A DNA stretch of 55,723 nucleotides from Polyangiaceae bacterium (GTDB taxonomy: Bacteria; Myxococcota_A; Polyangia; Polyangiales; Polyangiaceae). A program made the position numbers and the translations under genes. This document shows, one piece after another, positions 3,174 to 27,347 of the stretch (its first letter is position 1; each line of letters begins with the position of its first letter). The notes below the pieces were generated by a model. The model was not told the origin of the DNA and ran no database searches. It saw only the letters and a list, made by a program, of their open reading frames with translations. Where the stretch lies: contig JABSRN010000027.1 in assembly GCA_013214025.1 (NCBI GenBank), positions 1 to 55,723 of the forward strand. The letters run 5' to 3'.

Positions 3174-5933
3174 CTACGAGACGCCCGAAGCGAAACGCCG
3201 GTCAAACAAGCGCACACGTCGAACCCACAAGTCCAAAAGGAAGATCAGCATCGCCAACAGGATGCTGGACTGCCATAGCGGTTCCTGACGCTCCAAGATG
3301 TCGTCACCCGGGTCGAAGAGTTGCGCGGGCGTCGGATCCACATGACCGAGACCGGCGACTGCGGCGCGCTGCAGCGTCTCCTTGTCCGGAGCGAAGCGCG
3401 CGTACTCCGCCGGGTAGGGATGCGAGATGTGACCGTAGCTGACGCCGACACGCCGCTGCTCGCCTTCGTCGTTCTCCCGCGAGTGTTCTGCTCGCAGCGA
3501 GAAGGAACCGTACTCCTCCAACAAGAAGTTCGCCTCATAACGACCGGGCGCGACTTGCCGCATCATCACCTCACGCTGCCTGCCCTTGGGCTCAGGTCCG
3601 CTCACCAGCAAGCGCGACGTGAATTGATTGTCAAAGCGCTGTCCCGCCGTGAAGGCGTCCACCACGGCCCTCACCCGATCGCCATCGCGCGACACCTTCA
3701 TGGGGATCTCGCGCCGATGTTTGCGGCGCATATGCTCGCGCACCAGTTGTCCCCAAAAGCGACCAAAATGTTGCCAACGAAGCCAATCGGACGCCCAAAG
3801 ATTCTTGACGTCACTAGTCCAGGCAAGCGTCCACCCCAAGCCGACTCGCCATCGCGCCAGAATGGGTTCCCCTTGGTCGCTAGCGAGAATGAGCTGGGCC
3901 GGTGCGGGCTTGAGCTGAGTAGCCACATATCCGTGAAGCAGGGGGGCGTGGCTGATCGCGATGCCTTTCAAGAAATCCGCGGCCCCGACCTGCACCACCG
4001 GAAACCACTCTTGCACCGCGGCCTGTCGCGAGATCATTTCCGTCTCGTGGGTGAAGATGCGTGGCAAGCTGTTGGGGTCCGGAACGTGATGATAGCGCCC
4101 GCCACCGGTGTCCGCGATCATGCGTAGCAAGTCTGCATTGGAACCGTTGCCGAGACCCACAGTCGTAACCGTAATGGACTCCGCCAACATTGCCTGGATC
4201 AGATCTCGTAAACCGTTGCTGTCCGCGTTGCCGTCCGTCAGCAAGATCACGTGTTTCTTCCGGGCTTGAACGACCGAAATATCTTGATAGGCCATGTCGA
4301 GGGGCCCGAAAAACTCAGTACCGCCGCCGGCCTGAATGCTCGCGATCTCGTTCTGAATGCGGCTGCGGTAGCGAGCTGGCTGCATCTTGACGTAACGCTT
4401 GGGTCGCGAATCGAAAGCGATAATCTCCAGCAAATCATCACCGCGGAGAACGCCGACGGTCGCTCGACACGCCGCCTTCGCCATCTCCATCGGCAGACCG
4501 GTCATAGATCCGGACCTGTCGATGACCAAGGCCATGGCCACGCTCGGCATCTCTTTTCGCCTCTCCGCATCCATGCGTACCGGGAGGATACGCTCCAGCG
4601 TGCTATGGGCCCAGCCGCCCAATCCGAATCCCGCCTCGCCACCGGCGAACACGAAGCCACCACCCAGGTCGCGCACATAACGCTCGATCAAATCTTGAGA
4701 GCCCGCACTGACCTTCTCCTTAGGCGTATCGGAAAGCACAACCAGATCGTAACGCTCCAGCTCTTTGAGTGAGCCCGGGAACCCGGAGGGCGATCGTACG
4801 TCCACCTCAAACTGTTGAGCCGATAGAGCGCCAGACAGGTAGTTCGCTCGCTGAGGCTGGCCTTCGATGTACAAGACCGTGGGGCGGCCTGGCACTTCCA
4901 AAGTAGCGGTCTGATGATTGTTCGCCACGAAACGGTCTCCTTTGACCTGGTCGATCACCAGGCGATAGGTGACCTTGCCGCCAAAGCGAACCACACTCTT
5001 GAAGCGCAATTCGTTGGTGCCGGCTTTCAGCTCGATCTTTCGAACACCGTCGAGGCCGTTGAGCATCTCCCCCTGGTAGAGGCGGCCCCTCACGCTTGTC
5101 GCCCGGCTGGCGTACACCTCGCCGACCAATTCGAAAGGCTGGCCCACCTCCACCTTATCCGGCACGGTCAACGAGCGCACCGCCACTTCCGGGGGCGGCG
5201 CCTGATCGATCACATGGGTGGACAATTTGACGCCAAAGATGGAGGCGCGGCCAGCCTCCGCCAACAAATCCCCTTGGGTCTCCAGCCCATCGCTGATCAA
5301 CACCATGCGCTTGAGGTAGCCCGGCGGAAAGACAGCGTAGCCAAGCTGCATCGCTGATTGGATATCGCTGGCCGCCAACAGCTTTGGCTCCTTCGACAAA
5401 GCGGTCCGCATTTCCTTAGCCGTCGGCAGCGTCCACTCTTCTTCGCCAACCGGTAGGTCGAGCAATCGCGCGCTGCCGGCGAAGACAACGACTCGGAGTA
5501 AATCCTCATTCGGGCGAGCCTGTTGCGCCGCGACCACTATCCCGCGCGCCGCTTCTAGCCCGTCGTCCGCGACCGAATTGCTTACATCGAGCAAAAACAC
5601 CGTCGCGACCCGAGCGCTGGTTTCGGTCCGTGACAAGCCGCCGACAGCTGTGGCCAGACAGGCGACAAAGGCCATACGCAAGGTCAACGAAACCACTCGC
5701 TGTTGCCAGGGCAGATCCGCGAGCGACTGGCTCATGACGAACAAAAGCGCAGGAATCGCCAACAACAAGGCAAGAGCCTTGGGGCGGAGTAATTCGAAAT
5801 GGTCTTCGCCGAACCGTACGGCGAAATCGCCCACCGCAGCATCCACGACATGCTGGCGGTACAGCTCGGCGAGCACGCCAAATCCTATCAGACAGACCGC
5901 TCCCCACAGCCAGCGGGCCAGCCGCGAACTCAT
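3174..5933 (-). CDS. Large membrane protein with two VWA domains flanking a glutamine-amidotransferase-like domain
   Basis: The protein has 919 residues from the ATG at 5933. Two hydrophobic segments near the N-terminus precede a first VWA domain with a MIDAS motif DVSNS (residues 116-120). A middle region (about 353-453) has the shape of a class I glutamine-amidotransferase/DJ-1 domain, including a GGGFVFAGGEAGFG stretch, with no clear catalytic Cys. A second VWA domain follows with DRSGS (472-476). A last hydrophobic segment lies near the C-terminus. The start overlaps the stop of the upstream gene (ATGA), which argues against the in-frame ATG at 5963. As last gene of a MoxR/DUF58/VWA operon it probably acts at the inner membrane with its VWA domains facing the periplasm. 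The specific target is unknown. Confidence 0.8.
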   Translation of the reverse strand: MSSRLARWLWGAVCLIGFGVLAELYRQHVVDAAVGDFAVRFGEDHFELLRPKALALLLAIPALLFVMSQSLADLPWQQRVVSLTLRMAFVACLATAVGGLSRTETSARVATVFLLDVSNSVADDGLEAARGIVVAAQQARPNEDLLRVVVFAGSARLLDLPVGEEEWTLPTAKEMRTALSKEPKLLAASDIQSAMQLGYAVFPPGYLKRMVLISDGLETQGDLLAEAGRASIFGVKLSTHVIDQAPPPEVAVRSLTVPDKVEVGQPFELVGEVYASRATSVRGRLYQGEMLNGLDGVRKIELKAGTNELRFKSVVRFGGKVTYRLVIDQVKGDRFVANNHQTATLEVPGRPTVLYIEGQPQRANYLSGALSAQQFEVDVRSPSGFPGSLKELERYDLVVLSDTPKEKVSAGSQDLIERYVRDLGGGFVFAGGEAGFGLGGWAHSTLERILPVRMDAERRKEMPSVAMALVIDRSGSMTGLPMEMAKAACRATVGVLRGDDLLEIIAFDSRPKRYVKMQPARYRSRIQNEIASIQAGGGTEFFGPLDMAYQDISVVQARKKHVILLTDGNADSNGLRDLIQAMLAESITVTTVGLGNGSNADLLRMIADTGGGRYHHVPDPNSLPRIFTHETEMISRQAAVQEWFPVVQVGAADFLKGIAISHAPLLHGYVATQLKPAPAQLILASDQGEPILARWRVGLGWTLAWTSDVKNLWASDWLRWQHFGRFWGQLVREHMRRKHRREIPMKVSRDGDRVRAVVDAFTAGQRFDNQFTSRLLVSGPEPKGRQREVMMRQVAPGRYEANFLLEEYGSFSLRAEHSRENDEGEQRRVGVSYGHISHPYPAEYARFAPDKETLQRAAVAGLGHVDPTPAQLFDPGDDILERQEPLWQSSILLAMLIFLLDLWVRRVRLFDRRFASGVS

Positions 5934-7801
5934 ACGGTCATCCTCCGGTGGTAGCTGATCCACTCCAGCAGAGAGAGAGCCGCCACGCCGAGCAACAAAT
6001 AGATCCAGACGCGTGCCCGCGCCCCGTCATGAAAACCACTAATGCCAACCGGCCGTGCCGCGCCCAACGTGATTTCAGCGTGGGGAGTAATATCGCTCTC
6101 GACTGGGTCGACTAGGTTCGCGGCGAAGGCTTGCTTCGGGCCTTCGCCCCGAGTGACCAGCTTGTAGAACCCGGCGCGATCGCCAAAGTAGGCCGCGCGC
6201 CCATGACGCACCGGTAGCGTACGTTGATTGCCCGCGGGATCGACCAGCTGAAGCGCCTCATCGTCGCCTGCGGCGGGTATATGCCACACCTCACCGGTCT
6301 TGTATGCGGAAAGATAGTCACTTTCCTCAGCGCTGAAGTAGTGAATCGTGTTGAGCAAGAACAGCGGCCAGCCTACGCGTAGAACAAAATCACTGTCCCG
6401 AGGATCGAAGCCTAAGGCCACGAAGTCGTGCCCGCGGCGCTTGCCCGCCACCAGAAAGGTTCCAAAATCACTCGTGGCAACCGCGGTGTCCCCCGGCTCG
6501 GGCCGCAGAGAGTATCCCGAGGCCGCTTGAATGTTGCCCGGTGCCATATGCCTAAGCAGGGGACTCTTGCGATCCCAGGTGTCGAAGCCAAAGTCACGCA
6601 GCGCTTTGCCACGCGCCACCGGACCGCCCTCAGCCGGAGGGTTCAGATAGAGCGCCGAGCCGCCACGCTCGTCCAAAGGCGGCGCGACTCCATCGAAAAT
6701 AGTTACGTCGAAGGCGCCAGCCGGTGGGTACGCGTCCGGCAAGACATGAGTCACGTCCAAGTACTCGTCGAGCAGCAGAGCGGCTTCCAAATAGGTATTC
6801 CCCCGGGTGACCACCGCCACACGCGCCCGTCTACGTTCGGGCAGGAGCGCGTAACCGTGGTTGTCCGACGGCTGGTAGTCTAAACTCGGATCCCTAGCCA
6901 CAACGCGGGCTTCTAAGGTCCGGCTGACGCCACCCAAGTCCGCATAGAAACGAGAATCACTCTCCCCGGGCTCCAGCGTCAACTCCGTGAGTTCCACCAG
7001 AATGCCGTCACCGAGTAGACGCAGCTCAACGGTTGCGCTCACCTCGTTGCTATTCGTGACCTCGATCATCAGCTCATAGCGAGACTTGTCCAAGGGATAG
7101 CGCCGCACCGAGAATGCCGTCACCGCCACGTTGGCGCTGCTGTGCCCGATGTGCAGATAACTGCACTTCGTATCCTTGAGCTCACCAGATCTCAGGACGT
7201 TCTTGTCCAGCGCCCCGTCGCTCACCAAAAGGATCTCCGATCGTTCCAGGCCCGTAAGCACGTCCTTCGCAAAGTCGATTCCGCGCCGCAGATCTACCCG
7301 GGTGTCGGACGCCTCCAGTCGGTTGACCGCTTCCGTCAGATCCCCGAGATCGGCTGTCATGCTGGACAGTGGAGTCACTCCGGCGTCCATTTTAGCGATC
7401 AGCATACGATCGGCCGCGCCCAAGCCTTGCACAAGCTTCAACAGCTGTATTTTCGCAGCTCCCAAACGAGACGGCGCCACATCAGTCGACTTCATGGACG
7501 CGCTGGTATCGACCAGCACCAAAATGTGGCGGCCATCGTTTTTCGAGCCCCAACGTGGATCGCCAAGAGCCAGGACCAGTAGGGCCAACAACAACAGCTG
7601 AAGGGCCAGGGACAGCCAGCGCTTGAGCTGTGAGAACAGCTGATTGGCATCATCGTCCAGCAACACGCGCTGCCAGAGCGGGGCGAAGGGCACAAATACC
7701 CGCCGGCGCCGGAGCTTCAATATATAGAGCACCGTCGTCACTAGGGCCGCCCCACCGAAAAGGGCCCCCAAGGTCGCGAGTGGCAAGCCGAAGAGCGACA
7801 T
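5930..7801 (-). CDS. BatA-like VWA membrane protein
   Basis: The first 85 residues form the aerotolerance-regulator N-terminal domain seen in BatA proteins: two hydrophobic segments (about 5-27 and 61-80) separated by the basic stretch KLRRRRVFVPFAPLW. A VWA domain follows with a complete MIDAS start, DTSAS at 98-102. The middle part (about 230-320) looks like a beta-sandwich. A C-terminal hydrophobic segment ends in a short basic tail, so much of the chain should be periplasmic. The start codon overlaps the stop of the DUF58 gene (TGATG) and its own stop overlaps the next start (ATGA), so the three genes are translationally coupled. In Bat operons such proteins work with MoxR and DUF58 partners; their clients are poorly known. 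Confidence 0.83.
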   Translation of the reverse strand: MSLFGLPLATLGALFGGAALVTTVLYILKLRRRRVFVPFAPLWQRVLLDDDANQLFSQLKRWLSLALQLLLLALLVLALGDPRWGSKNDGRHILVLVDTSASMKSTDVAPSRLGAAKIQLLKLVQGLGAADRMLIAKMDAGVTPLSSMTADLGDLTEAVNRLEASDTRVDLRRGIDFAKDVLTGLERSEILLVSDGALDKNVLRSGELKDTKCSYLHIGHSSANVAVTAFSVRRYPLDKSRYELMIEVTNSNEVSATVELRLLGDGILVELTELTLEPGESDSRFYADLGGVSRTLEARVVARDPSLDYQPSDNHGYALLPERRRARVAVVTRGNTYLEAALLLDEYLDVTHVLPDAYPPAGAFDVTIFDGVAPPLDERGGSALYLNPPAEGGPVARGKALRDFGFDTWDRKSPLLRHMAPGNIQAASGYSLRPEPGDTAVATSDFGTFLVAGKRRGHDFVALGFDPRDSDFVLRVGWPLFLLNTIHYFSAEESDYLSAYKTGEVWHIPAAGDDEALQLVDPAGNQRTLPVRHGRAAYFGDRAGFYKLVTRGEGPKQAFAANLVDPVESDITPHAEITLGAARPVGISGFHDGARARVWIYLLLGVAALSLLEWISYHRRMTV

Positions 7802-8745
7802 CAGCGCAAGAACCCGCCGTGACGGAACACGTTCAGCACCAGCTCATCAAAGCTCGTGTTCACGTCCGCTGGAAAGTACGTCACTTGGCTGCGCGCGCAA
7901 AAGCGATCGATCTCTTGATGATAGTCTCGCATGGCTTGCGCTAGACGACGTAGCAAGCCGTCGGTGACTGTCACCTCCCGAGACGCACCGGTTTCGCAGT
8001 CACGAATTTGCACATCGCCCTGGAGCCGGGGAATCGCCTCCGTTGGGTCCACGATGTGAATCACGTAGGGCTCAAACTTGTTGTACCGAAGAACATTGAT
8101 ACCGTTCTCGAAGCCTTGCGGGTCGTATAAATCAGAGATCAACACTGCCAAGCCGCGGCGCTTGTGAGCCGCTACAAACTGCGTCACCCGGGCACCGAGA
8201 TCCGTCTCTCCCTCCGGCTGCAAGCCTCGGAGAAAATCGAAAACTTTGAACACCTGACCCTTGCCCCGGGTCGTGGGCATCCGCGAGGAACCGTCCGCCT
8301 GCAAGGCCACGATCGTCACGCGGTCAAGCTTCGCCAGTCCGACATAGGCGAGAGCTGCGGCGAGTCGCCTAGCTTGATCAAACTTGCGCCCGTCCCCGAA
8401 CCCCATAGACGAAGAGCAATCGATCAAGAAGTAGACACTTAGATCCTCTTCTTCCTCGTAAAGACGCACCAGCAATTTGCCGAGACGTTGGTAGACATTC
8501 CAATCGACAAATCGGAAGTCGTCTCCTGCCGTGTATTCTCGGTGATCGGCGAATTCGACACCGCTGCCCCGCTTGCTGCTACGGCGCTCAGCCTTCAGTC
8601 GGCCCGCGAAAACCCGTCGGCTCACGATGGCAAGAGTTTCCAGCTTGCGCTGGAAGGCGTCGTCAAAAAGCAGGTCCGCCTTTTTCCGTGACTTCGACGC
8701 TCCCGACGAACGCGATCTCTGAAAGAGTTCAGTGAGTTTCATCAT
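7801..8745 (-). CDS. DUF58-domain protein (MoxR partner)
   Basis: This 314-residue soluble protein carries the DUF58 signature around DFRFVDWNVYQRLGKLLVR (about 76-94). A VWA-like core with DCSSS at 109-113 follows directly. The N-terminal 30 residues are basic. DUF58 proteins are almost always encoded next to MoxR ATPases, as here, where the MoxR gene ends 15 bases upstream. They are thought to bring VWA proteins to the ATPase. Two adjacent Met codons (8745 and 8742) could start translation. The stop overlaps the start of the next gene. I see no truncation or missing motif. Confidence 0.87.
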   Translation of the reverse strand: MMKLTELFQRSRSSGASKSRKKADLLFDDAFQRKLETLAIVSRRVFAGRLKAERRSSKRGSGVEFADHREYTAGDDFRFVDWNVYQRLGKLLVRLYEEEEDLSVYFLIDCSSSMGFGDGRKFDQARRLAAALAYVGLAKLDRVTIVALQADGSSRMPTTRGKGQVFKVFDFLRGLQPEGETDLGARVTQFVAAHKRRGLAVLISDLYDPQGFENGINVLRYNKFEPYVIHIVDPTEAIPRLQGDVQIRDCETGASREVTVTDGLLRRLAQAMRDYHQEIDRFCARSQVTYFPADVNTSFDELVLNVFRHGGFLR

Positions 8746-8760: not shown

Positions 8761-9759
8761 CTAGACTTCGCTTTCCGGGAGGCCCTTCAAGATCCCTTCT
8801 ATGACTTCGTCCGAAGAAACCCCCTCGGCCTCACCCTCAAAATTCAACAGTACCCGGTGCCGCAGGGCCGGCAGCGCTGCCGTCTTCACGTCGTCCACCG
8901 ATGCCGCGAAACGTCCATCGAATAGCGCTCCGATCTTGGCCGCGAGAATCAGAGCCTGGGCACCGCGAGGAGAGGCGCCATTGCGCACAAAACGTTTAAC
9001 CGCATCGGGTGCCCCCGACTGATCCGGGTGCGTCGCATGCAGCAGTCGCACGGCGTAGTCTTGTACATGCTGGGTGACCGGCACGGTGCGGACGAAGTCT
9101 TGTAGTTGAATGATGTCCGATCGATTCGCGACCTTGGATGCGCGGGGTGCGCTTTGTCCCGTGGTGCGTGACAAGATCTCGTGAAGCTCTTTTCGAGACG
9201 GAAACGGCACCCGTAACTTAAAAAAGAAACGATCCAATTGGGCTTCGGGCAGAGGGTACGTCCCCTCCATCTCCAGGGGGTTTTGGGTCGCCAACACAAA
9301 GTACGGCCCCTCGATCACGTGGCTGGTGCGCCCAACAGTCACGCACTGCTCCTGCATGGCCTCAAGGAGCGCGCTCTGCGTCTTCGGGGTGGCGCGATTG
9401 ACCTCGTCCGCCAACACGATATTAGAAAAAATCGGGCCTTTCTGGAATTCAAAACGTTTGCTGCCTCCCGCCCCTTCCTCGATCACCGTCGTTCCGATGA
9501 TGTCGGCGGGCATCAGATCGGGAGTGAACTGAATTCTCGAAAACTCAAGATCCAACACCTCGCCAAGGGTGCGCACCAGCATGGTCTTGCCCAATCCCGG
9601 TACCCCTTCCAGCAGGACGTGGGAACCAGCCAGCACACAAGTCAGTGCGCCATCGATCACCGGCCTCTGGCCCACTATCACTCGGCCAATCTCTTCCCGA
9701 ATCGCACCGACTCGTCGTTGAAAATCAGCGACCTTTTCTTTGGCATTTTCAGCTGTCAT
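8761..9759 (-). CDS. MoxR-family AAA+ ATPase
   Basis: The 332-residue protein has a Walker A motif GVPGLGKT (52-59), a Walker B region ending LADE (115-118) and the MoxR signature NRATPKTQSALLEAMQE directly after it. A sensor-1 region, LATQNPLEMEGTYPLPEAQ, follows. These residues make it a hexameric AAA+ ATPase of the MoxR branch. Such proteins act as chaperones that activate or insert metal centres or remodel VWA-containing partners. It is the second gene of the five-gene operon, 22 bases after the coiled-coil membrane protein and 15 bases before the DUF58 gene. All expected ATPase motifs look intact. Confidence 0.93.
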   Translation of the reverse strand: MTAENAKEKVADFQRRVGAIREEIGRVIVGQRPVIDGALTCVLAGSHVLLEGVPGLGKTMLVRTLGEVLDLEFSRIQFTPDLMPADIIGTTVIEEGAGGSKRFEFQKGPIFSNIVLADEVNRATPKTQSALLEAMQEQCVTVGRTSHVIEGPYFVLATQNPLEMEGTYPLPEAQLDRFFFKLRVPFPSRKELHEILSRTTGQSAPRASKVANRSDIIQLQDFVRTVPVTQHVQDYAVRLLHATHPDQSGAPDAVKRFVRNGASPRGAQALILAAKIGALFDGRFAASVDDVKTAALPALRHRVLLNFEGEAEGVSSDEVIEGILKGLPESEV

Positions 9760-9781: not shown

Positions 9782-11629
9782 TCACTCCCGGGGCCGAATC
9801 AATTGAAAGTAGCGGCGGACATAGAACTCGTAACCCGGCGGCACCTGATCTCGTGCCAGGACCTCTTCGGCTACAGTTTGGTAATCCACAAACACCTTCT
9901 TGTAACCGCGCCCAGTGAAACCTCGTTCGGCCGCCGAATAGACAACCTCGGCGGAAGCTTGCCCCTCGCCCGTGTCCACCCCGGCCGCTGTCACGTCTTG
10001 AGTTTTGTACTTGAATCGGGTGGCCTCTCCTTTGAGGTTGGGATCGTGGCCTGCCCCCCATTGATCACCGCCGCCTTGCCCGCGGCCCTGGCCCTGTTGC
10101 GAGCCGGACTGGGAGCCGCTGCCGGCCATCGGGATCTGCACTCCCCCGGCCCCCGCACCAAAACTCAGACGAGCCTTGCCGCGACCCTTGCCGGATCCCG
10201 GTTTTCCGCCACGAGCGCGTTTGCCAAACTTCATCTGTCGACGCATGCGCTCCTTGCCACTCGCCCCTTGCTGCCGAAGCAATTGCCGCATTTGCTCAAG
10301 ACGCTTTTTCAGCGACTTCTTTTCTTTGGCCGTCATGCGGTCGCGAGCGGCGCGGTTGATATCTTGAGCCGCCGACTCAAGATCTTCAGCGCCCAGGTCC
10401 AGATCCTTCATCAAGTCCCGCGCCGCCTTTTGCAAATCTCGATCAACCTGGCTCAGCTTTTCCTGGGCTCGCTTGGCGGCCCGTCGCTGGCGATCCAAGC
10501 GGCGCAATCGGCGGCGGTTCTTTTGCCGCTCTTTTTGGTTCGTGGCGCGACTTTTTGCATCCTGAGACTTCTGCTTGAGCAGCCGTTTCTCTCGGTCTGC
10601 CAGCTCCGCTCGCTTGGCGTCTAGATATTTCATGCGAGCCTGGCTTCGTGTTCCTGCCTTCTCCAGCGCAGACCGCAATCGCTCTAGTTGAGCCTTGTTG
10701 ACGCCCCGTTTCTTCTTCAGCTTCGCCGCCAGATCCCTAAAGGCTTTTTCGGCGTCCTTGAGCCGGTCGGTTTTGATCGCTTCCGCCGCTTTTCGGGTCA
10801 GCGGGCTTTGCTCCAGCGCCTTGGCGATGGATTCTAGTCCCTCATCGAGCGCTTGGCTTTCGAGATCTGCGTCTGCCAGTGCTCGCTTCTCTAGCTCCGC
10901 CATCCGACGGAATGCCTCAGGCCGATCGAGTTTGCGCGCGGCGATGTCTTCCACCAACTGGTTGAAGCCCCGGACAGCGGATGCCAGTTCCGGATCGTCA
11001 CTCTCGGCATCAAACTCGCCGGCCAGCTCGCCGAATAGTTCGAGGTCATCGTCACTGAGCAACTGCGCCGGGGGCAGGGGCGGCGCAACCACCTGAGGCA
11101 CCTCCTCCTGGGGCTCGGGAAGTTTCGTCAACCCGAATACCCCCAGACCGATCAAGAACGCGCCCAGCAGCCGTCCCGGAAGCCGAATGGGCGTCGCGGC
11201 CCGGGGATCGAGTAAATGTGCGTGGGCTGTCGCGTCCTCCACAGCAGCCTGCATCAGCGGGGTGCGTTCCTGCGGGGGCAGCGCATAGAACGCCAACGCG
11301 TTGCCTACACGCCCTGCCAACCCGTGGTGCCGGTCCAATATGGCAGCACCGTGAGCGGCCGGTCTCCGAATGCGCAGCACCTGAACCAAAGCGAGCAGCA
11401 GCCCAAACAAAACACCTAATCCACCTACAAGCCAACGCGTGCGGGCGTCGACACTGAGATCGCCGTACTTAAACAGCACGACGCAAAACCCAACATAGGC
11501 CGGCAACCACGGGGCCCATGCCCCCAAGCGACGCAGCAACTCGCTCGAAACGATACGCCGCTCCGTCGCGCGGACCGCAGAGGACAGCCTACCGATTGAC
11601 TCGCTCAGATCGCTGCTAACAGACTTCAT
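9782..11629 (-). CDS. Coiled-coil membrane protein opening the MoxR/VWA operon (DUF4175-like)
   Basis: The N-terminal third carries three hydrophobic segments (about 42-60, 67-88 and 150-166). A very long charged, helical region rich in Lys, Arg, Glu and Ala (about 190-470) follows, with the heptad look of a coiled coil. Next comes a Gly/Ser/Gln-rich low-complexity stretch (about 470-535). The C-terminal 80 residues are compact and end in YEFYVRRYFQLIRP. This layout resembles DUF4175-type proteins in MoxR/VWA operons. I cannot assign a biochemical role. As the first gene it may be the membrane scaffold for the ATPase and VWA proteins, which is an inference from position only. The start is the ATG at 11629. 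Confidence 0.7.
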   Translation of the reverse strand: MKSVSSDLSESIGRLSSAVRATERRIVSSELLRRLGAWAPWLPAYVGFCVVLFKYGDLSVDARTRWLVGGLGVLFGLLLALVQVLRIRRPAAHGAAILDRHHGLAGRVGNALAFYALPPQERTPLMQAAVEDATAHAHLLDPRAATPIRLPGRLLGAFLIGLGVFGLTKLPEPQEEVPQVVAPPLPPAQLLSDDDLELFGELAGEFDAESDDPELASAVRGFNQLVEDIAARKLDRPEAFRRMAELEKRALADADLESQALDEGLESIAKALEQSPLTRKAAEAIKTDRLKDAEKAFRDLAAKLKKKRGVNKAQLERLRSALEKAGTRSQARMKYLDAKRAELADREKRLLKQKSQDAKSRATNQKERQKNRRRLRRLDRQRRAAKRAQEKLSQVDRDLQKAARDLMKDLDLGAEDLESAAQDINRAARDRMTAKEKKSLKKRLEQMRQLLRQQGASGKERMRRQMKFGKRARGGKPGSGKGRGKARLSFGAGAGGVQIPMAGSGSQSGSQQGQGRGQGGGDQWGAGHDPNLKGEATRFKYKTQDVTAAGVDTGEGQASAEVVYSAAERGFTGRGYKKVFVDYQTVAEEVLARDQVPPGYEFYVRRYFQLIRPRE

Positions 11630-12119: not shown

Positions 12120-12851
12120 ATGAGTTTGAACGAAGACACCGTCGTCTTGGTAGCCGACGACGAACCCAGCACGCTGGCACTTGTGAGTGCCCACCTACGG
12201 ACCAAAGGCTTCAAAGTAATTGAAGCCAGCGACGGCGACCAGGCGTGGCAGATGGCTCACGAGTACTTGCCCGACGTTGTCGTGCTCGACGTGATGATGC
12301 CGGGAATGAGCGGCTGGGAGGTCTGTCGAAAGATCCGCGAAGCCGTATCTCTCGCGCATACCGGAGTCGTCATGTTGACCGGCATTGGCGAGAATCTGAA
12401 CGAGCTCACATCTCCTCTTTACGGAGCCGACGCGCACCTCGACAAGCCCTTCGAGTTCGCGACCCTGGACGAAAAGATCCAAGAGACGCTGGACATCCGA
12501 CGCGCCGAGAGCGCGGAGTCCGAACCGCCCGAAGAGAGCTCCGAAGAATCCGAAGAGGGGTCCGAAGACAGCTCTGACGAGTCGTCCGATGCGACTGATG
12601 ACGACGAGCCGGCGAGCGGAGTTACAACGTCCACCAAGCCCGTAGACGACCCGGAAGAAGAGGCTGAGGAAAAGAATGCCGCTTCCAAGAAGAAGGCGAC
12701 GCCCAAGAAAGCGACGCCCAAGAAGAAGCCTGCCAAGAAGAAGGTGACTAAGAAGCCTGCCAAGAAGAAGGTGACTAAGAAGCCTGCCAAGAAGAAGGTG
12801 ACTAAGAAGCCTGCCAAGAAAGCCGCTAAGAAAGCCGCTAAGAAAAAGTAG
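12120..12851 (+). CDS. Response regulator receiver domain fused to an acidic linker and a histone-H1-like lysine tail
   Basis: Residues 5-120 form a complete CheY-like receiver: acidic pair D13-D14, phospho-acceptor D57 in VVVLDVMMPGMSG, T87 and K109. There is no classical output domain. Residues about 130-180 are a Ser/Glu/Asp-rich acidic linker. The last ~65 residues are Lys/Ala/Pro-rich with perfect KPAKKKVTK repeats, like bacterial histone-H1-type proteins (HctA, AlgP) that bind DNA non-specifically. The ATG at 12120 is chosen because the receiver fold begins just after it; upstream in-frame sequence is not protein-like. The gene ends in three successive TAG codons and a strong terminator. 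It is monocistronic, and the partner kinase is not in the window. Phosphorylation-controlled nucleoid binding is an inference. Confidence 0.85.
   Translation: MSLNEDTVVLVADDEPSTLALVSAHLRTKGFKVIEASDGDQAWQMAHEYLPDVVVLDVMMPGMSGWEVCRKIREAVSLAHTGVVMLTGIGENLNELTSPLYGADAHLDKPFEFATLDEKIQETLDIRRAESAESEPPEESSEESEEGSEDSSDESSDATDDDEPASGVTTSTKPVDDPEEEAEEKNAASKKKATPKKATPKKKPAKKKVTKKPAKKKVTKKPAKKKVTKKPAKKAAKKAAKKK
12726..12836 (+). repeat. Tandem repeats encoding the lysine-rich tail
   Basis: A 27-bp unit coding KPAKKKVTK occurs three times without mismatch (12726-12752, 12753-12779, 12780-12806), then a 12-base partial copy ending at 12818. Two copies of a 12-bp unit coding KAAK follow (12819-12842, overlapping the gene end). 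Perfect identity, including third codon positions, points to recent expansion by slippage or unequal exchange. Confidence 0.95.
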
Positions 12852-15782: not shown

Positions 15783-17474
15783 ATGCTAAATTTCTTTCGA
15801 GGCGGCGGATTCATCCAGATCATCATGGTCGGGGTAGTGGGCGCCATCATTGCCACCTTCTTGTTCTCGTTTCAGGGAGCCGGCTCTTCCACTGGGGCGC
15901 TTGGTCGCGAATGCGCCGTCACGGTGTATGGCGAGTGTGTTCCCCCGAAGGATCTATTCAGTTCCTACGGTCTGGTTGTCGCTCGCGGCATGTCGGCCAA
16001 GCAAGCCCAGAATCTGGAGCTGAAGTCCCATCTGCTCGAGGGACTGGTCGAAAGAGAACTGTTGCTCCGAGATGCCAAACGCCTCGGGCTCGGCATCAGC
16101 CGCGACGCATTGGCCGCCGATCTCCGGCGGGGCCGTGCGCGATTGTCTCTGCCCGCCAGCCAGGCGTTGGAACTCGGGTACCGCTTGGGGCTCGGACCAG
16201 ACATGGTGCAAGCCCTGCCCGTACAGAGCGCCAAAACCCAGGCATTCGATCAACAGATTTATGAGCGCGTGATCCGCAACGTCGCTCGACGAACTCCCAA
16301 GGACTTTCGGCTATTCCAAGAGAAGGAAGCCGTCGCCGCCCGCATGCGCGATTCCATTCGCTCGCGGGTGCGCATGAGCGAGAAAGAGGCCTTCGCGGTC
16401 TACGAGCTCGAGAACACAAAGGCTGTGGCGCGCAACAGCCTTGTGCAGCAAGCCTGGTTCGGGCGATTTGGCACGAAGCTCTCCAGTGAAGCCGTCAGCA
16501 GCTGGGCCAGCGGCAACGGCGATGCCATCAAGAAAGAGTGGGAAACCGCCAAGTCCCAGTACGGCGCGGGTTGTGCTCTGGTCAGCGAAATCCTGCTCAG
16601 CACTGGCGCCACCGACGACGACAAGGCCAGTCAGCGCACCAGCATCGACCAGATCAAAACTGATCTCAAAAACGGCAGCAGCTTCGCCGCTCTTGCCCAG
16701 CGGCTCAGCGACGGGCCCGGCGCTCTTGCGGCGGGTCACATGGGTTGCCTGAGCGAGGCCTACGGGCCCGGACATGTGGAGCTCAGCTCGGCAATCAAAG
16801 ACCTCGCCGAAGGCGGCGTGTCCGACGTGGTCGAGACAACGCGCGGCTTTCATCTAGTCAAGCTGCACGCTCGTTTGACCAAGGACAACGCCGAACAGCA
16901 CGGCCGCGCCGCCGTCACGGACCGTTTGGCCGCCCAGGGGCTGGCGAAAGGCGCAGCCGAAACCTTCGCCAAACAGCTGATCACCCTCGCTGTCGGCGGA
17001 GAAGGCTTGGATCCCGCCACCAAGCGCCTGCGCCGTGAGTTCCTCGGTCTCCCGGCGGAGGCAACGGACGACGAGAAGCTGAACGCTCATCAAGAGAAAG
17101 CCCTAGCCTCCGAAGATCGCCCCCGGGTCGAGATCTCCAGCGAATTCAACTCCACCGGGCGTCCCGTGAGCAACACCCTTCCCGGCAGCTCGCCAGCCAA
17201 GATCGTGCTGGCACTCGCCAACGATGACGCGGTGCACCCGGAGCCCATCGGCACCCGCTCGGGCTTCGTTGTTCTGCAGCTCAAGAGCAAATCCGTGGCG
17301 GACACGGCGGAGTTCGAAAAGAACAAGTCCCAGCATATCAATCGCCTGCTCTTCGCCAAACGCGCGGACGCTCTCAAGAGCTACATGAGTCGACTGCGCA
17401 AAGCCGCTGAAAACAAGATCTCGATAAACGCGGCCTACGCCGACAAGACTCCGGCACCCAGCGATGACAGCTGA
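15783..17474 (+). CDS. Membrane-anchored parvulin-type peptidyl-prolyl isomerase (PpiD/SurA-like)
   Basis: The protein has 563 residues. One hydrophobic segment near the N-terminus (about 10-30) anchors it, leaving the rest in the periplasm. Residues about 60-240 are helical like SurA_N/PpiD N-terminal domains. A parvulin (rotamase) domain lies at about 262-365, with ALVSEILLSTG, FAALAQRLSDGPGALAAGHMG and GFHLVKLHAR. A second, weaker rotamase-like end, GTRSGFVVLQLKSK, occurs near residue 510. It should help fold outer-membrane or periplasmic proteins. The ATG at 15783 is preferred because the anchor segment follows it and AAGGA lies upstream. The M16 peptidase gene follows after 24 bases and is likely cotranscribed, giving a folding-plus-degradation pair. 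Confidence 0.8.
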   Translation: MLNFFRGGGFIQIIMVGVVGAIIATFLFSFQGAGSSTGALGRECAVTVYGECVPPKDLFSSYGLVVARGMSAKQAQNLELKSHLLEGLVERELLLRDAKRLGLGISRDALAADLRRGRARLSLPASQALELGYRLGLGPDMVQALPVQSAKTQAFDQQIYERVIRNVARRTPKDFRLFQEKEAVAARMRDSIRSRVRMSEKEAFAVYELENTKAVARNSLVQQAWFGRFGTKLSSEAVSSWASGNGDAIKKEWETAKSQYGAGCALVSEILLSTGATDDDKASQRTSIDQIKTDLKNGSSFAALAQRLSDGPGALAAGHMGCLSEAYGPGHVELSSAIKDLAEGGVSDVVETTRGFHLVKLHARLTKDNAEQHGRAAVTDRLAAQGLAKGAAETFAKQLITLAVGGEGLDPATKRLRREFLGLPAEATDDEKLNAHQEKALASEDRPRVEISSEFNSTGRPVSNTLPGSSPAKIVLALANDDAVHPEPIGTRSGFVVLQLKSKSVADTAEFEKNKSQHINRLLFAKRADALKSYMSRLRKAAENKISINAAYADKTPAPSDDS

Positions 17475-17498
17475 TCTCGGATTCCGAAGGGCCCATTC

Positions 17499-18788
17499 TT
17501 GAACTGGGAGAGCATCCCGGCGCAAAGCCACACGCTGAGTTCCGGCCTCCGTGTCGTGACGATCGCGATGCCCCACACGCACCGGATCGCTATCAACGCC
17601 CAAATCGCCATCGGTTCGCGTCACGAATCCAACGCAAACAACGGAGTGAGCCATTTTCTGGAGCATATGCTCTACCGAGGGATCCCCAGCCACCCCACCG
17701 CTCACCAGCAGGCCGTCGCCTTCGAGGAACTGGGCGGAACCCTCCACGCATCCACCGCTGTGGACGCCGGATCGCTGGCCATTTCGGTCCCGCCGGAGAA
17801 CTTCTCCCCCACGCTGTCCCTGTTCGCAGAAGTATTCCAGCACCCGCAGCTGGACGGCATCGATCTCGAACGAGGCATCGTCGAAGAAGAAATTCTCGAC
17901 GGCTTAGACGAGGTCGGAGAGAGCGTGGATGCGGACGACTGGATCCGCCAGTTGGTATTTCGAAATCACAGCCTGGGCATGCCCATCACCGGCACCCTCG
18001 ATACCCTGTCCGGCTTCGATGCTGACGGCCTGCTCGCCCACCATGCCGACTACTATTGTGGCGCCGCCTCCACTATCGCAATCGCGGGTCCCCTAGATCC
18101 CGACGCGGTATTTCGGCAACTAGACGCCGCTTTCGCCAAACAACGAAGCGGGCAACGCCAGGCCCTCGGCGCTTCCCCTACAGCGCCCGGCGGCAGGTAC
18201 CGGCACGTGCGCCACACTGCAAGCCAGACAGAGCTCCGCCTCGGCTTTCTCGCCCCGGGCATCGGACACAAAAGTGAACCGGCAGTCGAAATGTTGTTAC
18301 GCATTCTCGACGACGGTCTTTCCACGCGCCTCTACCAAGAGATCTGCGACAAGCGCGGCCTCTGTTACGACGTCAGTGGTCACTTCGAAGCCTACGAAGA
18401 CAGTGGCCTGGTCGAGCTAGCAGCGGAGTCTGCCCACGATCGAAGCCCGGCCGTGCTGGAAACCATTCTCGGCATTCTCGATAGCCTGCGGCAGTCGGGG
18501 CCAACGGAAGCCGAATTACGCAAAGCGCGCGACCGTCACCGCTGGGAGCAACTCGCCATGTTGGATCGCCCAGGCGCCATGGCGGAACACCACGCTGAAT
18601 ACGCCCAGTTTCGCGAAGGTGTCAGCCTGCAGTCTCGCCACGAAGAGCTCGCCAGCCTAACTCCTGCCGACATCCAAAACGCGGCAGCCTTCGTGTTCTC
18701 TGCGAACAACATGGCCGGCGTTAGCGTCGGCGTACAGAACGCGAAACAACAAGAGCAGCTAGAAAAACAGCTGCAGTCTTTTGTCTGA
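17499..18788 (+). CDS. M16-family zinc peptidase (pitrilysin type)
   Basis: The 429-residue protein has the inverted zinc motif HFLEH (52-56) and the downstream Glu pair in GIVEEEI (around 127-132) that supplies the third ligand, so it should be an active M16 peptidase subunit. The second half is the usual inactive M16_C-like repeat (GLRLGFLAPG-like strand, then YDVSGHFEAYEDSGL). The likely start is the TTG at 17499: it has AAGGG upstream and gives the standard N-terminal strand ending GLRVVTIAMPHTHR. The first in-frame ATG at 17569 would remove half of that strand. No signal peptide is visible. It follows the isomerase gene closely. Confidence 0.87.
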   Translation: MNWESIPAQSHTLSSGLRVVTIAMPHTHRIAINAQIAIGSRHESNANNGVSHFLEHMLYRGIPSHPTAHQQAVAFEELGGTLHASTAVDAGSLAISVPPENFSPTLSLFAEVFQHPQLDGIDLERGIVEEEILDGLDEVGESVDADDWIRQLVFRNHSLGMPITGTLDTLSGFDADGLLAHHADYYCGAASTIAIAGPLDPDAVFRQLDAAFAKQRSGQRQALGASPTAPGGRYRHVRHTASQTELRLGFLAPGIGHKSEPAVEMLLRILDDGLSTRLYQEICDKRGLCYDVSGHFEAYEDSGLVELAAESAHDRSPAVLETILGILDSLRQSGPTEAELRKARDRHRWEQLAMLDRPGAMAEHHAEYAQFREGVSLQSRHEELASLTPADIQNAAAFVFSANNMAGVSVGVQNAKQQEQLEKQLQSFV

Positions 18789-18859
18789 ACGGCGTCAGCA
18801 CGATCGATTCCGTCAACGACCATAGCGGAACACTGAGGGACCGCTGCCTGCGGAAACAA

Positions 18860-19549
18860 TTACGGGCGAGAGCCGAAGCGCTGCTCCACGGAACGCTCGG
18901 CCAATCCCGCCAAGCTCTGACGCATGAGCGCGTCGAGGCGGGCGGCGATCACCACATCCGCATTCCGACTCGCGTCGCGAGTCGAGTACAGCACACTGAG
19001 ACACTGGCGAGCCTTGGCACCGAAGTACTGCAGGTGTCCATGCACGCGCCCCTCAGGGTCTCGAAGCACAAAGGCCTGTACTCGTCCCGTGAAGTCTCGA
19101 GGTACCCGCACCTCCTGGCTATCGACCAGCTGGCTCGGCTCAGGCCTGAGGAGTTCCGGCCGCCAACGCCGCACCTGTTTCTCGCATTCGGTGGGTGTCA
19201 CCGGTAGCGACGCATTCCACATCCGCAACGACAAACGCGTAGCCGATTGCCGGTGCCGCCCTTCCAGCCATCGGCTATCGCGATCATTGAGCGCCCAGCC
19301 CGATCGGTCGTGAAGCGGTAAGGAAATCAGAAATCGCTGGGACATCAATCTTCGCACACGTCCCGTGAGAAACGCCTCGTCCAGTACCGGACGCGCGGGC
19401 GCCCGATCCGCTGACGCCGTCTCCCCGGATGCCTGGGGCACAGCCGAGCCAGGCGCGGCAGGCGCCAGCGCCGGGGCACAGGACAGACACAGCGCTGTAC
19501 TCAGGAGCCTAGGCCCCCAAGCTGCGAAATTTAGACTCGAGTCAACCAC
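18860..19549 (-). CDS. Putative exported protein of unknown function
   Basis: The reading frame looks like a real exported protein but matches no family I know. A GTG at 19549 gives a signal sequence (AAWGPRLLSTALCLSCAPAL). The cleavage could be by signal peptidase I or, less typically, II after the Cys. An Ala/Pro-rich spacer precedes a mature domain of about 180 residues. The alternative ATG at 19648 would overlap the ilvE gene by over 100 bases and bring an unlikely Arg-rich leader. With the GTG start the overlap with ilvE is 19 bases, which suggests cotranscription behind it. Confidence 0.5.
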   Translation of the reverse strand: MVDSSLNFAAWGPRLLSTALCLSCAPALAPAAPGSAVPQASGETASADRAPARPVLDEAFLTGRVRRLMSQRFLISLPLHDRSGWALNDRDSRWLEGRHRQSATRLSLRMWNASLPVTPTECEKQVRRWRPELLRPEPSQLVDSQEVRVPRDFTGRVQAFVLRDPEGRVHGHLQYFGAKARQCLSVLYSTRDASRNADVVIAARLDALMRQSLAGLAERSVEQRFGSRP

Positions 19550-20469
19550 TCGGGATGAGATTCGTCGGCGCCGCGAACGAGGCCGAAGTAGCGAGCCTGG
19601 AGTGATTTCGTGACGGGGCCCACCACCGGGGAAACCGACGGCAGACACCCGATGGGGCGATTATCCACTTCGCGCACGGGAGTCACTTCAGCGGCCGTCC
19701 CTACGAGGAACACTTCGTCAGCTAAGTAGAGCTGATCCCGCGTCAGCATGGCCTCTTCGACCACCAAGCCATCTTCTCTGGCCAGAGTCATGATGGTGTC
19801 CCGGGTAATGCCCGGAAGAATCGATGCGGATGCCGGCGGCGTGTACAAGCGGCCGCCTTTGACGATAAAGATGTTCTCGCCCGATCCCTCGCAAACGTAA
19901 CCGTTCACGTCCAACAGTAGGGCTTCGTCGTAGCCCGCCATCTGGGCTTCACGCTTGGCCATTACGGAGTTGATGTACTGGCCCGTCAGCTTGCCCTTCG
20001 TCATGTTCACGTTGGTGTGCAATCGGGAAAAGCTTGAGATCTTGCAACGGATGCCCTTGTCGAGGCCGTCCTTGCCGAGATAGGTCCCCCATTCCCACGC
20101 CATCACGTAGGTCTGCGGCGGATTGTCCGTGGGCAGCAATCCCATCGCCCCCGCCCCCAGCACCACTAGAGGGCGCAAGTAGGCAGCGTTGAGTCCGTTT
20201 TCACGGAGCACTTGCAAACACCCTTCGGTGACTTGATCGATACTGACCTGCGGCTCGAAAGTGGCGAGCCGACAAGAATCGAACAGTCGAACGATGTGCT
20301 CTCGTAGGCGGAAGATGTAGGTGTGCCCATCGTCGCGCTGGTACGCGCGGATCCCCTCGAAGGCGCCGACGCCGTAATGCAGGGTGTGGGTCAGGAGTGA
20401 GACTTGGCTCGCCTCCTTCGCATCGAGAATCTGTCCGTCTTTCCAGAGCTTTGCGCCAATATCGACCAT
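19531..20469 (-). CDS. ilvE: Branched-chain amino acid aminotransferase
   Basis: This PLP enzyme transfers the amino group between glutamate and the keto acids of Leu, Ile and Val. The 312-residue length and the fold class IV motifs fit IlvE: THTLHYGVGAFEGIRAY near residue 27, the PLP lysine K160 in TKGKLTGQY, and DVNGYVCEGSGENIF further on. The ATG at 20469 has a good GAGGAAAT ribosome site. A candidate promoter with a palindrome in its spacer lies upstream. It faces away from the unknown gene at 20907. Confidence 0.95.
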   Translation of the reverse strand: MVDIGAKLWKDGQILDAKEASQVSLLTHTLHYGVGAFEGIRAYQRDDGHTYIFRLREHIVRLFDSCRLATFEPQVSIDQVTEGCLQVLRENGLNAAYLRPLVVLGAGAMGLLPTDNPPQTYVMAWEWGTYLGKDGLDKGIRCKISSFSRLHTNVNMTKGKLTGQYINSVMAKREAQMAGYDEALLLDVNGYVCEGSGENIFIVKGGRLYTPPASASILPGITRDTIMTLAREDGLVVEEAMLTRDQLYLADEVFLVGTAAEVTPVREVDNRPIGCLPSVSPVVGPVTKSLQARYFGLVRGADESHPEWLTRV

Positions 20470-25745: not shown

Positions 25746-27347
25746 ATGTTGACTCTCCTCCGACGCCGTTTCGCCCTGTTCACCGCCCTCGCCATCGCAG
25801 GGGTGCTGGTGGCTCAGACGGCGTCCGCGGGCCCCACGCCCCCGGAGGATGAAACCGTTCTGGGCGAGCTGCCCATCACCGGCAGTAGCGAGGAGCACAT
25901 CACCAAGCTCGCCATCTTGCCATCGCTCTCCTGGGATATGGCGGACGTGGTCGTCCGTGGGGTGGTGCGCCGAGACTTCGAACTCACCGGCATGTTCGAT
26001 CTCATCGATGACAAGAAGGCGCCTCCCGGGCTCTACGGCTTTCGTGATGCCGTCGACGTGGACGAGTGGAAGAAACTCGGTGCCGAGGTGATCATCAAAG
26101 TCGCCGCCAAAAAAACCAAAGACGGCAAGGTCGAAGTGTTTGGCCTCGCCTACTTTCCCAGTGTCGGAACAGATCCAGTCTACGAGAAGAAGATCACCGT
26201 CGCCGAAGACCAAGTGCGAGTCACCGCCCATCGAGTCACCGACGGCTTGCTCGGCGCTATCACCGGTCGCGACGGCGGCTTCGCCAGTCACCTGACCTTC
26301 TCTGGCAAGTGGGGACGCAACCGCCGCATCTTCACCCTCGACAGCGACGGGCAAAGCCTGAAGCCCGTCACCGAAGAGACCGATACGTCCATCGCGCCGA
26401 TATGGGGGCCGAAGGGTCAGCTGTTCTACTCTCGGAGCCGCAAGTACAGTCCCTTTCGCTTGACCGCCTTCGATCCTGCCTTTGCCCTGAAGCTTCCATT
26501 TCGTGGGTCGATCTACAGCGCTGCCTTCAACAATGATCACAGCAAGCTGGCAATCGCTGTCGCTGAAAAGGGCACATCCAAGATTTACGTCGGCCGCGCC
26601 GATGGCTCCGGCATGAAGAAGGTCTCCACAGCTGAACTGGCGACGCACCCGGTGTGGAGTCCCTCCGGCAAGCTCGCCTACGTCGGTGGCGGCGGCAAGC
26701 GCGGCACTCAGCGTATCTACGTCGACGGAAAGCCCGTCTCTCCTGCCGGATTCACAGCGTCAGCCCCCGCCTTCTGCGACACCGAAGACGGCATCAAGCT
26801 GGTTTTCGCTGTCGCCGTGGGCGGAAATCGCCAGGACTTGATCCTCACCGGCGAACGCGGCGGGCAAATGATTCGCCTCACTCAGAACAAGGGATCCAAC
26901 TCCTACCCAGCCTGCAGCCCCGATGGCCGTCTGCTCGCGTTCTTTTCCACTCGTAAGACCGGCAAGGGTCCAGGGCTCTACATCAAGTCCCTGAGGCGCT
27001 GGCGCTCCCAACGCATCAGTTCGCGGGTGGGCGAGAGCCTCCGCTGGGCACCCCTGCCCGCTCCTCCGGCGCCTCCGAAAGCCGCCAAGACGCCCAAAAA
27101 AGCCAAGCCGCCCAAGGCGAAAAAGCCGGCTCCTACCAAAACCGCTGCCCCGACAAGCAAGACCAGCACCGCCGCCAGCCGCCGCACCGTTCCTGCCAAA
27201 CCCAGGGGCAAGCCCAGGAAGCCCGCCGCAGGCAAGCTGGCTCCTGCTGGGGCGACGGTTACGCCCATCCCGCCTTCGGAAAAGGCGCCAGCACCGCGTC
27301 TGCCGGCGCCTGCCACGCCGATGCCCGCGGCTCCCGCTACCAAGTAG
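25746..27347 (+). CDS. tolB: TolB-like beta-propeller protein with a basic low-complexity tail
   Basis: A signal peptide ends near residue 25 (QTASA). The TolB N-terminal domain (about 40-155) is followed by a beta-propeller built of PD40/WD40-like blades, seen in KWGRNRRIFTLDSDGQSL, HPVWSPSGKLAYVGG and YPACSPDGRLLAFFSTR. The last ~100 residues are Lys/Ala/Pro-rich (PKAAKTPKKAKPPKAKKPAP and similar), strongly basic and surely disordered. E. coli TolB has no such tail. TolB is periplasmic and hands Pal to the TolA machinery. The gene closes the operon, and its stop codon is part of a 27-base duplication. Confidence 0.83.
   Translation: MLTLLRRRFALFTALAIAGVLVAQTASAGPTPPEDETVLGELPITGSSEEHITKLAILPSLSWDMADVVVRGVVRRDFELTGMFDLIDDKKAPPGLYGFRDAVDVDEWKKLGAEVIIKVAAKKTKDGKVEVFGLAYFPSVGTDPVYEKKITVAEDQVRVTAHRVTDGLLGAITGRDGGFASHLTFSGKWGRNRRIFTLDSDGQSLKPVTEETDTSIAPIWGPKGQLFYSRSRKYSPFRLTAFDPAFALKLPFRGSIYSAAFNNDHSKLAIAVAEKGTSKIYVGRADGSGMKKVSTAELATHPVWSPSGKLAYVGGGGKRGTQRIYVDGKPVSPAGFTASAPAFCDTEDGIKLVFAVAVGGNRQDLILTGERGGQMIRLTQNKGSNSYPACSPDGRLLAFFSTRKTGKGPGLYIKSLRRWRSQRISSRVGESLRWAPLPAPPAPPKAAKTPKKAKPPKAKKPAPTKTAAPTSKTSTAASRRTVPAKPRGKPRKPAAGKLAPAGATVTPIPPSEKAPAPRLPAPATPMPAAPATK

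Follow-up and report, generated by a model that had tools for sequence, protein, structure and literature searches.

The gene under study lies in a 55,723-nucleotide stretch of DNA from a Polyangiaceae bacterium (hereafter the window), where its open reading frame begins with an ATG at 12120 and closes with a stop codon at 12849-12851. Its product has three parts, listed here with the DNA repeat that lies within the last of them:

12120..12851, + strand: whole gene, receiver plus acidic linker plus lysine-rich tail (243 aa and stop)
12120..12503, + strand: receiver domain, residues 1-128 (Pfam PF00072, conserved site, confident fold)
12504..12677, + strand: acidic Ser/Glu/Asp linker, residues 129-186 (composition and charge; not conserved across the family)
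12678..12848, + strand: histone H1-like lysine-rich tail, residues 187-243 (composition, predicted disorder, family conservation)
12723..12820, + strand: exact 27-bp tandem repeat coding KKPAKKKVT, 3.6 copies

The initial annotation had described a complete receiver with D13, D14, D57, T87 and K109, joined through an acidic Ser/Glu/Asp linker to a KPAKKKVTK-type basic tail, and both descriptions were borne out. The five residues are as stated, residues 9-120 match Response_reg (PF00072, E 1.2e-22, 80.6 bits against a cut-off of 30.2), and composition and charge agree for the remainder: the linker holds 17 E, 12 S and 8 D among its 58 residues (net charge -23), and the tail 30 K among 57 (net charge +30), the two together making up the 115 residues that follow the receiver. 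The copies of the 27-bp repeat match each other at 100%. In an AlphaFold model built on 31 family sequences (mean pLDDT 77.4), 10-residue blocks scored 87-98 up to residue 130 and 48-61 from residue 141, i.e., a confident receiver followed by predicted disorder. No second Pfam family was found in the 243 residues at E<=0.1; with one Pfam family and the remainder modelled as disorder, a folded output domain is absent after the receiver. A scan for promoters and terminators returned 0 of either. On the opposite strand, an open reading frame of 132 aa (12419-12817, -) encodes hydrophobic repeats that mirror the lysine codons of the tail, and it is likely not a gene. A frame artefact as the source of the tail was ruled out, since it is the lysine-rich frame that relatives keep.

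As a rule, a response regulator exerts its effect via a folded output domain; one that consists of a single domain works through partners instead. Having no folded output domain, the protein studied here is a single-domain response regulator. Among the best 50 PDB matches, its fold matched ordinary receivers at 22-38% identity, DivK and CheY-type chains included, and the best 25 of 96 NCBIfam matches were to other regulators, all far under their cut-offs. The codon of the phospho-acceptor D57 occupies 12288-12290. No kinase was identified adjoining the gene.

We searched for orthologues in 97 genomes (the own genome and 96 relatives), accepting one strong match per genome, down to 1.4e-30, the next best match standing at 6.1e-22. 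Orthologues were present in 48 of the 60 sampled genomes of the window's family, which includes Sorangium, and in 32 of 37 genomes from the rest of the order, with each of its 11 other families represented. D57 and K109 are kept in all 48 and all 32, so that the phospho-site is intact in 80/80 orthologues. Every one of the 48 own-family orthologues carries a Lys/Ala/Pro-rich extension, the length of which is very variable: the proteins span 165-617 aa in total (at least 200 aa where no contig end cuts the protein), and the extension 71-489 aa in members without such a cut. Five of the 48 are cut by a contig end, one (L074) looks frame-disrupted and one (L054) contains masked bases. The same kind of extension was seen in 15 further own-family genomes and in G107 (L238, cut), with 64 own-family genomes read in all. 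Outside the family, the tail was found in 0/32 orthologues: in 27 the end lies no more than 8 aa from the receiver as delimited, and the other five, all from family f8, have short basic ends of 22-24 aa. Likewise, 19 orthologues chosen from further families of the class and phylum have 0-14 aa after the receiver, and 0/19 carry the tail.

With a receiver profile, 89 of 108 family genomes matched at E<=1e-30, one of them (G119) with two strong matches; in the 19 without an orthologue at this threshold the gene is either dispensable or was missed. In a sample of the phylum 162 of 377 genomes matched, 9 of these reaching just 1e-33 to 1e-30 and thus possibly representing other receivers. A scan of named genomes yielded four clear orthologues only (L139-L142), including those of a Polyangiaceae bacterium (L139, 77%) and Sorangium cellulosum So ceGT47 (L140, 63%). 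The latter is an exception from 5001 onward, being acidic in the receiver's frame and lysine-rich in another; the tail region of L074 (genome G023) is arginine-rich in the receiver's frame. Judging by their reading frames, both tails look disrupted, whether by assembly or in nature. As to the own genome, 80 other receiver open reading frames, read in 60 stretches that cover all but 8 of its 86 other receiver places, carry no such tail, the lysine fraction reaching at most 0.20 in any 40-aa window after the receiver.

These distributions bear on two points of the initial annotation. It had named homologues that keep the receiver and lack both linker and tail as the sign of a local repeat expansion; such homologues do exist outside the family, yet inside it every orthologue read is tailed, and the tail is therefore not a local expansion. 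A local oddity or chance run was rejected on the same 48/48 count together with the lysine bias described below. It had also placed the tail where an output domain would normally stand, which is slightly off: since the orthologues of other families are receiver-only, the tail came as an addition to a regulator of one domain.

The history of this addition was followed on a quick, midpoint-rooted tree of 80 receivers (131 columns, 38 of 76 inner branches open), on which the tail was coded as present in own-family proteins of at least 165 aa. A single change, on a branch of SH-aLRT 95, accounts for the tail; with midpoint rooting, the tree alone cannot tell its gain from its loss. Because the 19 more distant orthologues lack the tail, a single gain in the lineage of the window's family appears to be the simpler reading.

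The tail could also be functionless, a short basic end that grew by repeats and was tolerated. Its exact 27-bp repeats are of a kind that expands easily, the extension varies as widely in length as given above, and the five f8 orthologues have short basic ends. Against this, the tail is kept in 48/48 family orthologues, and it holds to lysine in place of arginine, the residue preferred by the window's other proteins. In 46 basic tails (the 48 family orthologues less L074 and L054; median 93 aa and net +37, the four shortest coming from proteins cut at contig ends) we counted 1601 Lys and 205 Arg, a K/(K+R) of 0.886; the receivers of those proteins give 0.394, and 14 genes from the window, whose G+C content is 0.61, give 0.303. 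This bias points to selection for lysine. Moreover, from genome to genome the repeat units change and the charge stays. That lysine persists against a background leaning to arginine, and charge persists through drift in sequence and length, argues against neutral repeat growth, which we regard as very improbable. The tail being kept across a bacterial family, it likely has a function, acting on a polyanion that is probably DNA.

The linker has a different history. We defined a strongly acidic stretch as at least 10 D/E in 30 aa and found one in 12 of the 48 family orthologues, with 29 of the 48 having at most 5 D/E per 30 aa. On the tree the acidic trait changes 7 times, against a mean of 10.8 in shuffles, of which 1 in 200 was as low; the acidic state is therefore partly inherited, yet often gained or lost. 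By these comparisons the conserved feature is the tail, not the linker. This matters for the mechanism proposed in the initial annotation, in which the acidic linker of the unphosphorylated protein folds back on the basic tail and phosphorylation of D57 frees the tail to coat or compact DNA globally. The charges of linker and tail (-23 and +30) nearly cancel, the phospho-site is intact in all 80 orthologues and acidic members cluster on the tree, all of which speaks for such a release switch. It sits poorly, however, with the scarcity of strongly acidic stretches, with their repeated gain or loss and with the structure model, which predicts no contact and renders both linker and tail as disorder. 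Fold-back of the linker thus fails as a general mechanism of the family; it may hold for the members with an acidic linker, and on the whole we consider it quite unlikely. Phosphorylation-gated compaction of the nucleoid is possible as a hypothesis.

We then turn to similar tails elsewhere. The Pfam profile HC2, built on the chlamydial histone H1-like nucleoprotein, matched 8 of the 31 family members scanned (out of 48), with a best E of 9.3e-9; the window's own protein has no match, and the likeness is one of composition, with no evidence of descent. Matches to HC2 occurred in 10 of 20 genomes, over the cut-off in 6, and those of G007 and G003 lie in orthologues of the receiver-tail gene itself. 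The own genome has one match (E 4.7e-6, 28.4 bits, under the cut-off of 40), located at the C-terminus of DNA topoisomerase I (L303:3001-5970, -; contig C37, about 17000-19969), where the last 86 aa include 38 K. We had entertained the idea that the receiver tail is the only one of its kind in its genome, and a tail-only search found just itself, yet the HC2 profile found the topoisomerase tail, and the idea was dropped. Kinship or gene conversion between these two tails was also rejected: they share KKKVTKK, and in 535 of 2000 trials shuffled tails had a shared string of at least that length. In relatives, HC2-matching or HC2-like lysine-rich tails were seen at the C-terminus of S-adenosylmethionine synthetase (MetK; G006, L307:2120-3694, -) and on an AHSA1 protein (G060). 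Thus the lysine-rich tail, given its occurrence on such different proteins, is a reusable module. Elsewhere in the window, a protein that looks TolB-like by eye (25746-27347, +) has a signal-peptide-like start and a KPKAKKP-type C-terminal part, from which tails of the latter type may also occur on envelope proteins. As to whether HU carries such a tail instead, a lysine-rich end is absent from L299 and L300, the two read among four HU/IHF-family matches (L299 to L302); the HU-family protein L299 (own genome, contig C147, 17645-17914, -) ends in a run of Asp, of charge opposite to an H1-like tail.

Several tails of related composition have been characterised in other bacteria. The PAKKA tail of Rhodococcus MLDS is described as binding DNA, with binding abolished upon its removal (PMC5504291); a fragment of the Pseudomonas AlgP tail and KPAA-repeat peptides are reported to bind DNA, the AlgP tail being also required for the spacing of polyphosphate granules (PMC9239181); and the histone H1-resembling lysine repeats of actinobacterial topoisomerase I are reported to confer processivity (PMC7398561). 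It is from these other proteins that we infer DNA binding by the receiver tail. The granule phenotype of AlgP can be turned the other way, suggesting a role off the chromosome: RNA, ribosomes or polyphosphate could be what the tail binds, or it could simply help the protein to stay in solution or to gather in condensates. The tails on S-adenosylmethionine synthetase and the AHSA1 protein speak for such a role, and because of them a tail of this kind is on its own no proof of a chromosomal one. Nevertheless, the two bacterial tails of such kind described in PMC9239181 and PMC5504291 bind DNA, and the one HC2 match of the own genome is the tail of an enzyme that works on DNA, which makes an off-chromosome role unlikely in our estimate.

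The genes around the receiver gene offer a different kind of clue. It is separated by 491 bp from a divergent gene for a 615-aa protein, beyond which lies a set of genes on the same strand as that neighbour:

9782..11629, - strand: divergent neighbour, 615 aa, coiled-coil-looking by eye (no Pfam family)
8761..9759, - strand: MoxR-type AAA+ ATPase (Pfam AAA_3, bpMoxR)
7801..8745, - strand: DUF58 protein (Pfam DUF58)
5930..7801, - strand: BatA N-terminal/VWA protein (Pfam BatA, VWA_2)
3174..5963, - strand: second VWA protein (Pfam VWA)

A homologue of the 615-aa protein is present in the flank in 22 of 48 own-family genomes (the window counted once) and at L140, and MoxR and DUF58 genes were seen at 9 of those 22 own-family loci and at L140. 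The MoxR counts are minima, the flank being just 1.5 kb at most own-family loci. In other families, BatD or a BatE-like TPR protein (the latter our own label, Pfam showing TPR only) lies in the flank at 18 of 32 loci, and at 10 of these 32 the TPR gene lies upstream on the receiver gene's strand, its end 34-139 bp away. At 8 of the 19 distant loci (L222-L226, L231-L233), a large protein, FHA-TPR-like by eye, flanks the tail-less receiver; its association with the receiver is perhaps older than the Bat one. The receiver thus has old ties to MoxR/Bat-type gene sets.

Taken together, we favour a reading (with a probability of roughly 0.6) in which a single-domain response regulator, its gene often found next to MoxR/Bat genes, is tethered to DNA by an acquired, disordered, H1-like tail. 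The simplest course would be a single gain of a PAKKA-type disordered lysine tail by a receiver in the window's family lineage, one that presumably is still phosphorylated at D57 and, like other single-domain regulators, signals through contact with proteins. The tail would serve as a sequence-non-specific tether to a polyanion, most likely chromosomal DNA, keeping the switch and whatever the receiver binds on the nucleoid. Its sequence and repeat number could then drift freely, provided that charge, disorder and lysine content stay, and where an acidic linker is present, as here and in some other members, it probably adjusts the affinity of the tail. DNA binding, tethering and phosphorylation, and any effect of the last on the tail, are conditional in this proposal. 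We counted in its favour the tail's presence throughout the family orthologues read and absence outside it, its single change on the tree, the lysine bias, the predicted disorder, the HC2 matches of 8 of 31 members, the comparable tail of the own-genome topoisomerase I and the DNA-binding tails of other bacteria; counted against it were the window's own tail falling under the Pfam HC2 threshold, the similar tails on S-adenosylmethionine synthetase and the AHSA1 protein, the easily expanded DNA-level tandem repeats, the 19 of 108 family genomes without an orthologue at E<=1e-30, and the frame-disrupted look of the L074 and L140 tails.

The closest working analogue of such a tethered switch is CarD of Myxococcus xanthus, whose architecture sets a direct precedent within the myxobacteria. 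CarD is described as a folded protein-binding domain followed by an acidic segment and then by a DNA-binding tail that is basic and disordered; that tail can be replaced by other basic disordered domains without loss of function, and CdnL is a tail-less homologue (PMC4374960). The window protein shares with CarD the folded N-terminal domain, the acidic segment, the basic disordered tail and the existence of tail-less homologues. It differs in that CarD has an HMGA-like tail with RGRP AT-hooks, whereas the window protein has Lys/Pro/Ala repeats and no RGRP in its translation, and in that its N-terminal domain is a receiver, no CarD_CdnL_TRCF domain being found by Pfam at E<=0.1. With CheY and DivK it has in common a receiver with an intact phosphorylation site and no folded output domain; those regulators lack a long tail. 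With AlgP and PhaF of Pseudomonas it shares a repetitive, disordered Lys/Pro/Ala C-terminal tail, which in those proteins has been linked to nucleoid tethering (PMC9239181); they have a granule-binding N-terminal helical domain and a KPAA repeat in place of the receiver and the KKPAKKKVT repeat found here. MLDS, too, has PAKKA-type C-terminal motifs, described as binding DNA and tethering another structure to it (PMC5504291); its N-terminal domain targets lipid droplets and is not a receiver. Finally, H1-like AlgP and the response regulator AlgR are reported to act at one Pseudomonas promoter as separate proteins, unlike the present case, in which both kinds of module are joined in one (PMC4064291).

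A combination of receiver and H1-like tail was not found in the open-licence literature (titles and abstract starts, among the matches listed). The parts are already known; new is their combination, kept across one bacterial family. A bolder version of the proposal, which we think rather improbable, is two-component control of chromosome packing: phosphorylation of the receiver would alter the DNA affinity, valency or clustering of the fused H1-like tail, so that a sensor kinase sets the state of the nucleoid or brings MoxR/Bat-linked partners to DNA through a protein that has no sequence-specific output domain and is kept family-wide. With the tail in every own-family orthologue read and absent from the sister families read, the receiver provides a natural before-and-after experiment, which poses the question of whether an added non-specific chromosome tether rewires a signalling switch, and it offers a simple test case for nucleoid packing under two-component control in bacteria.
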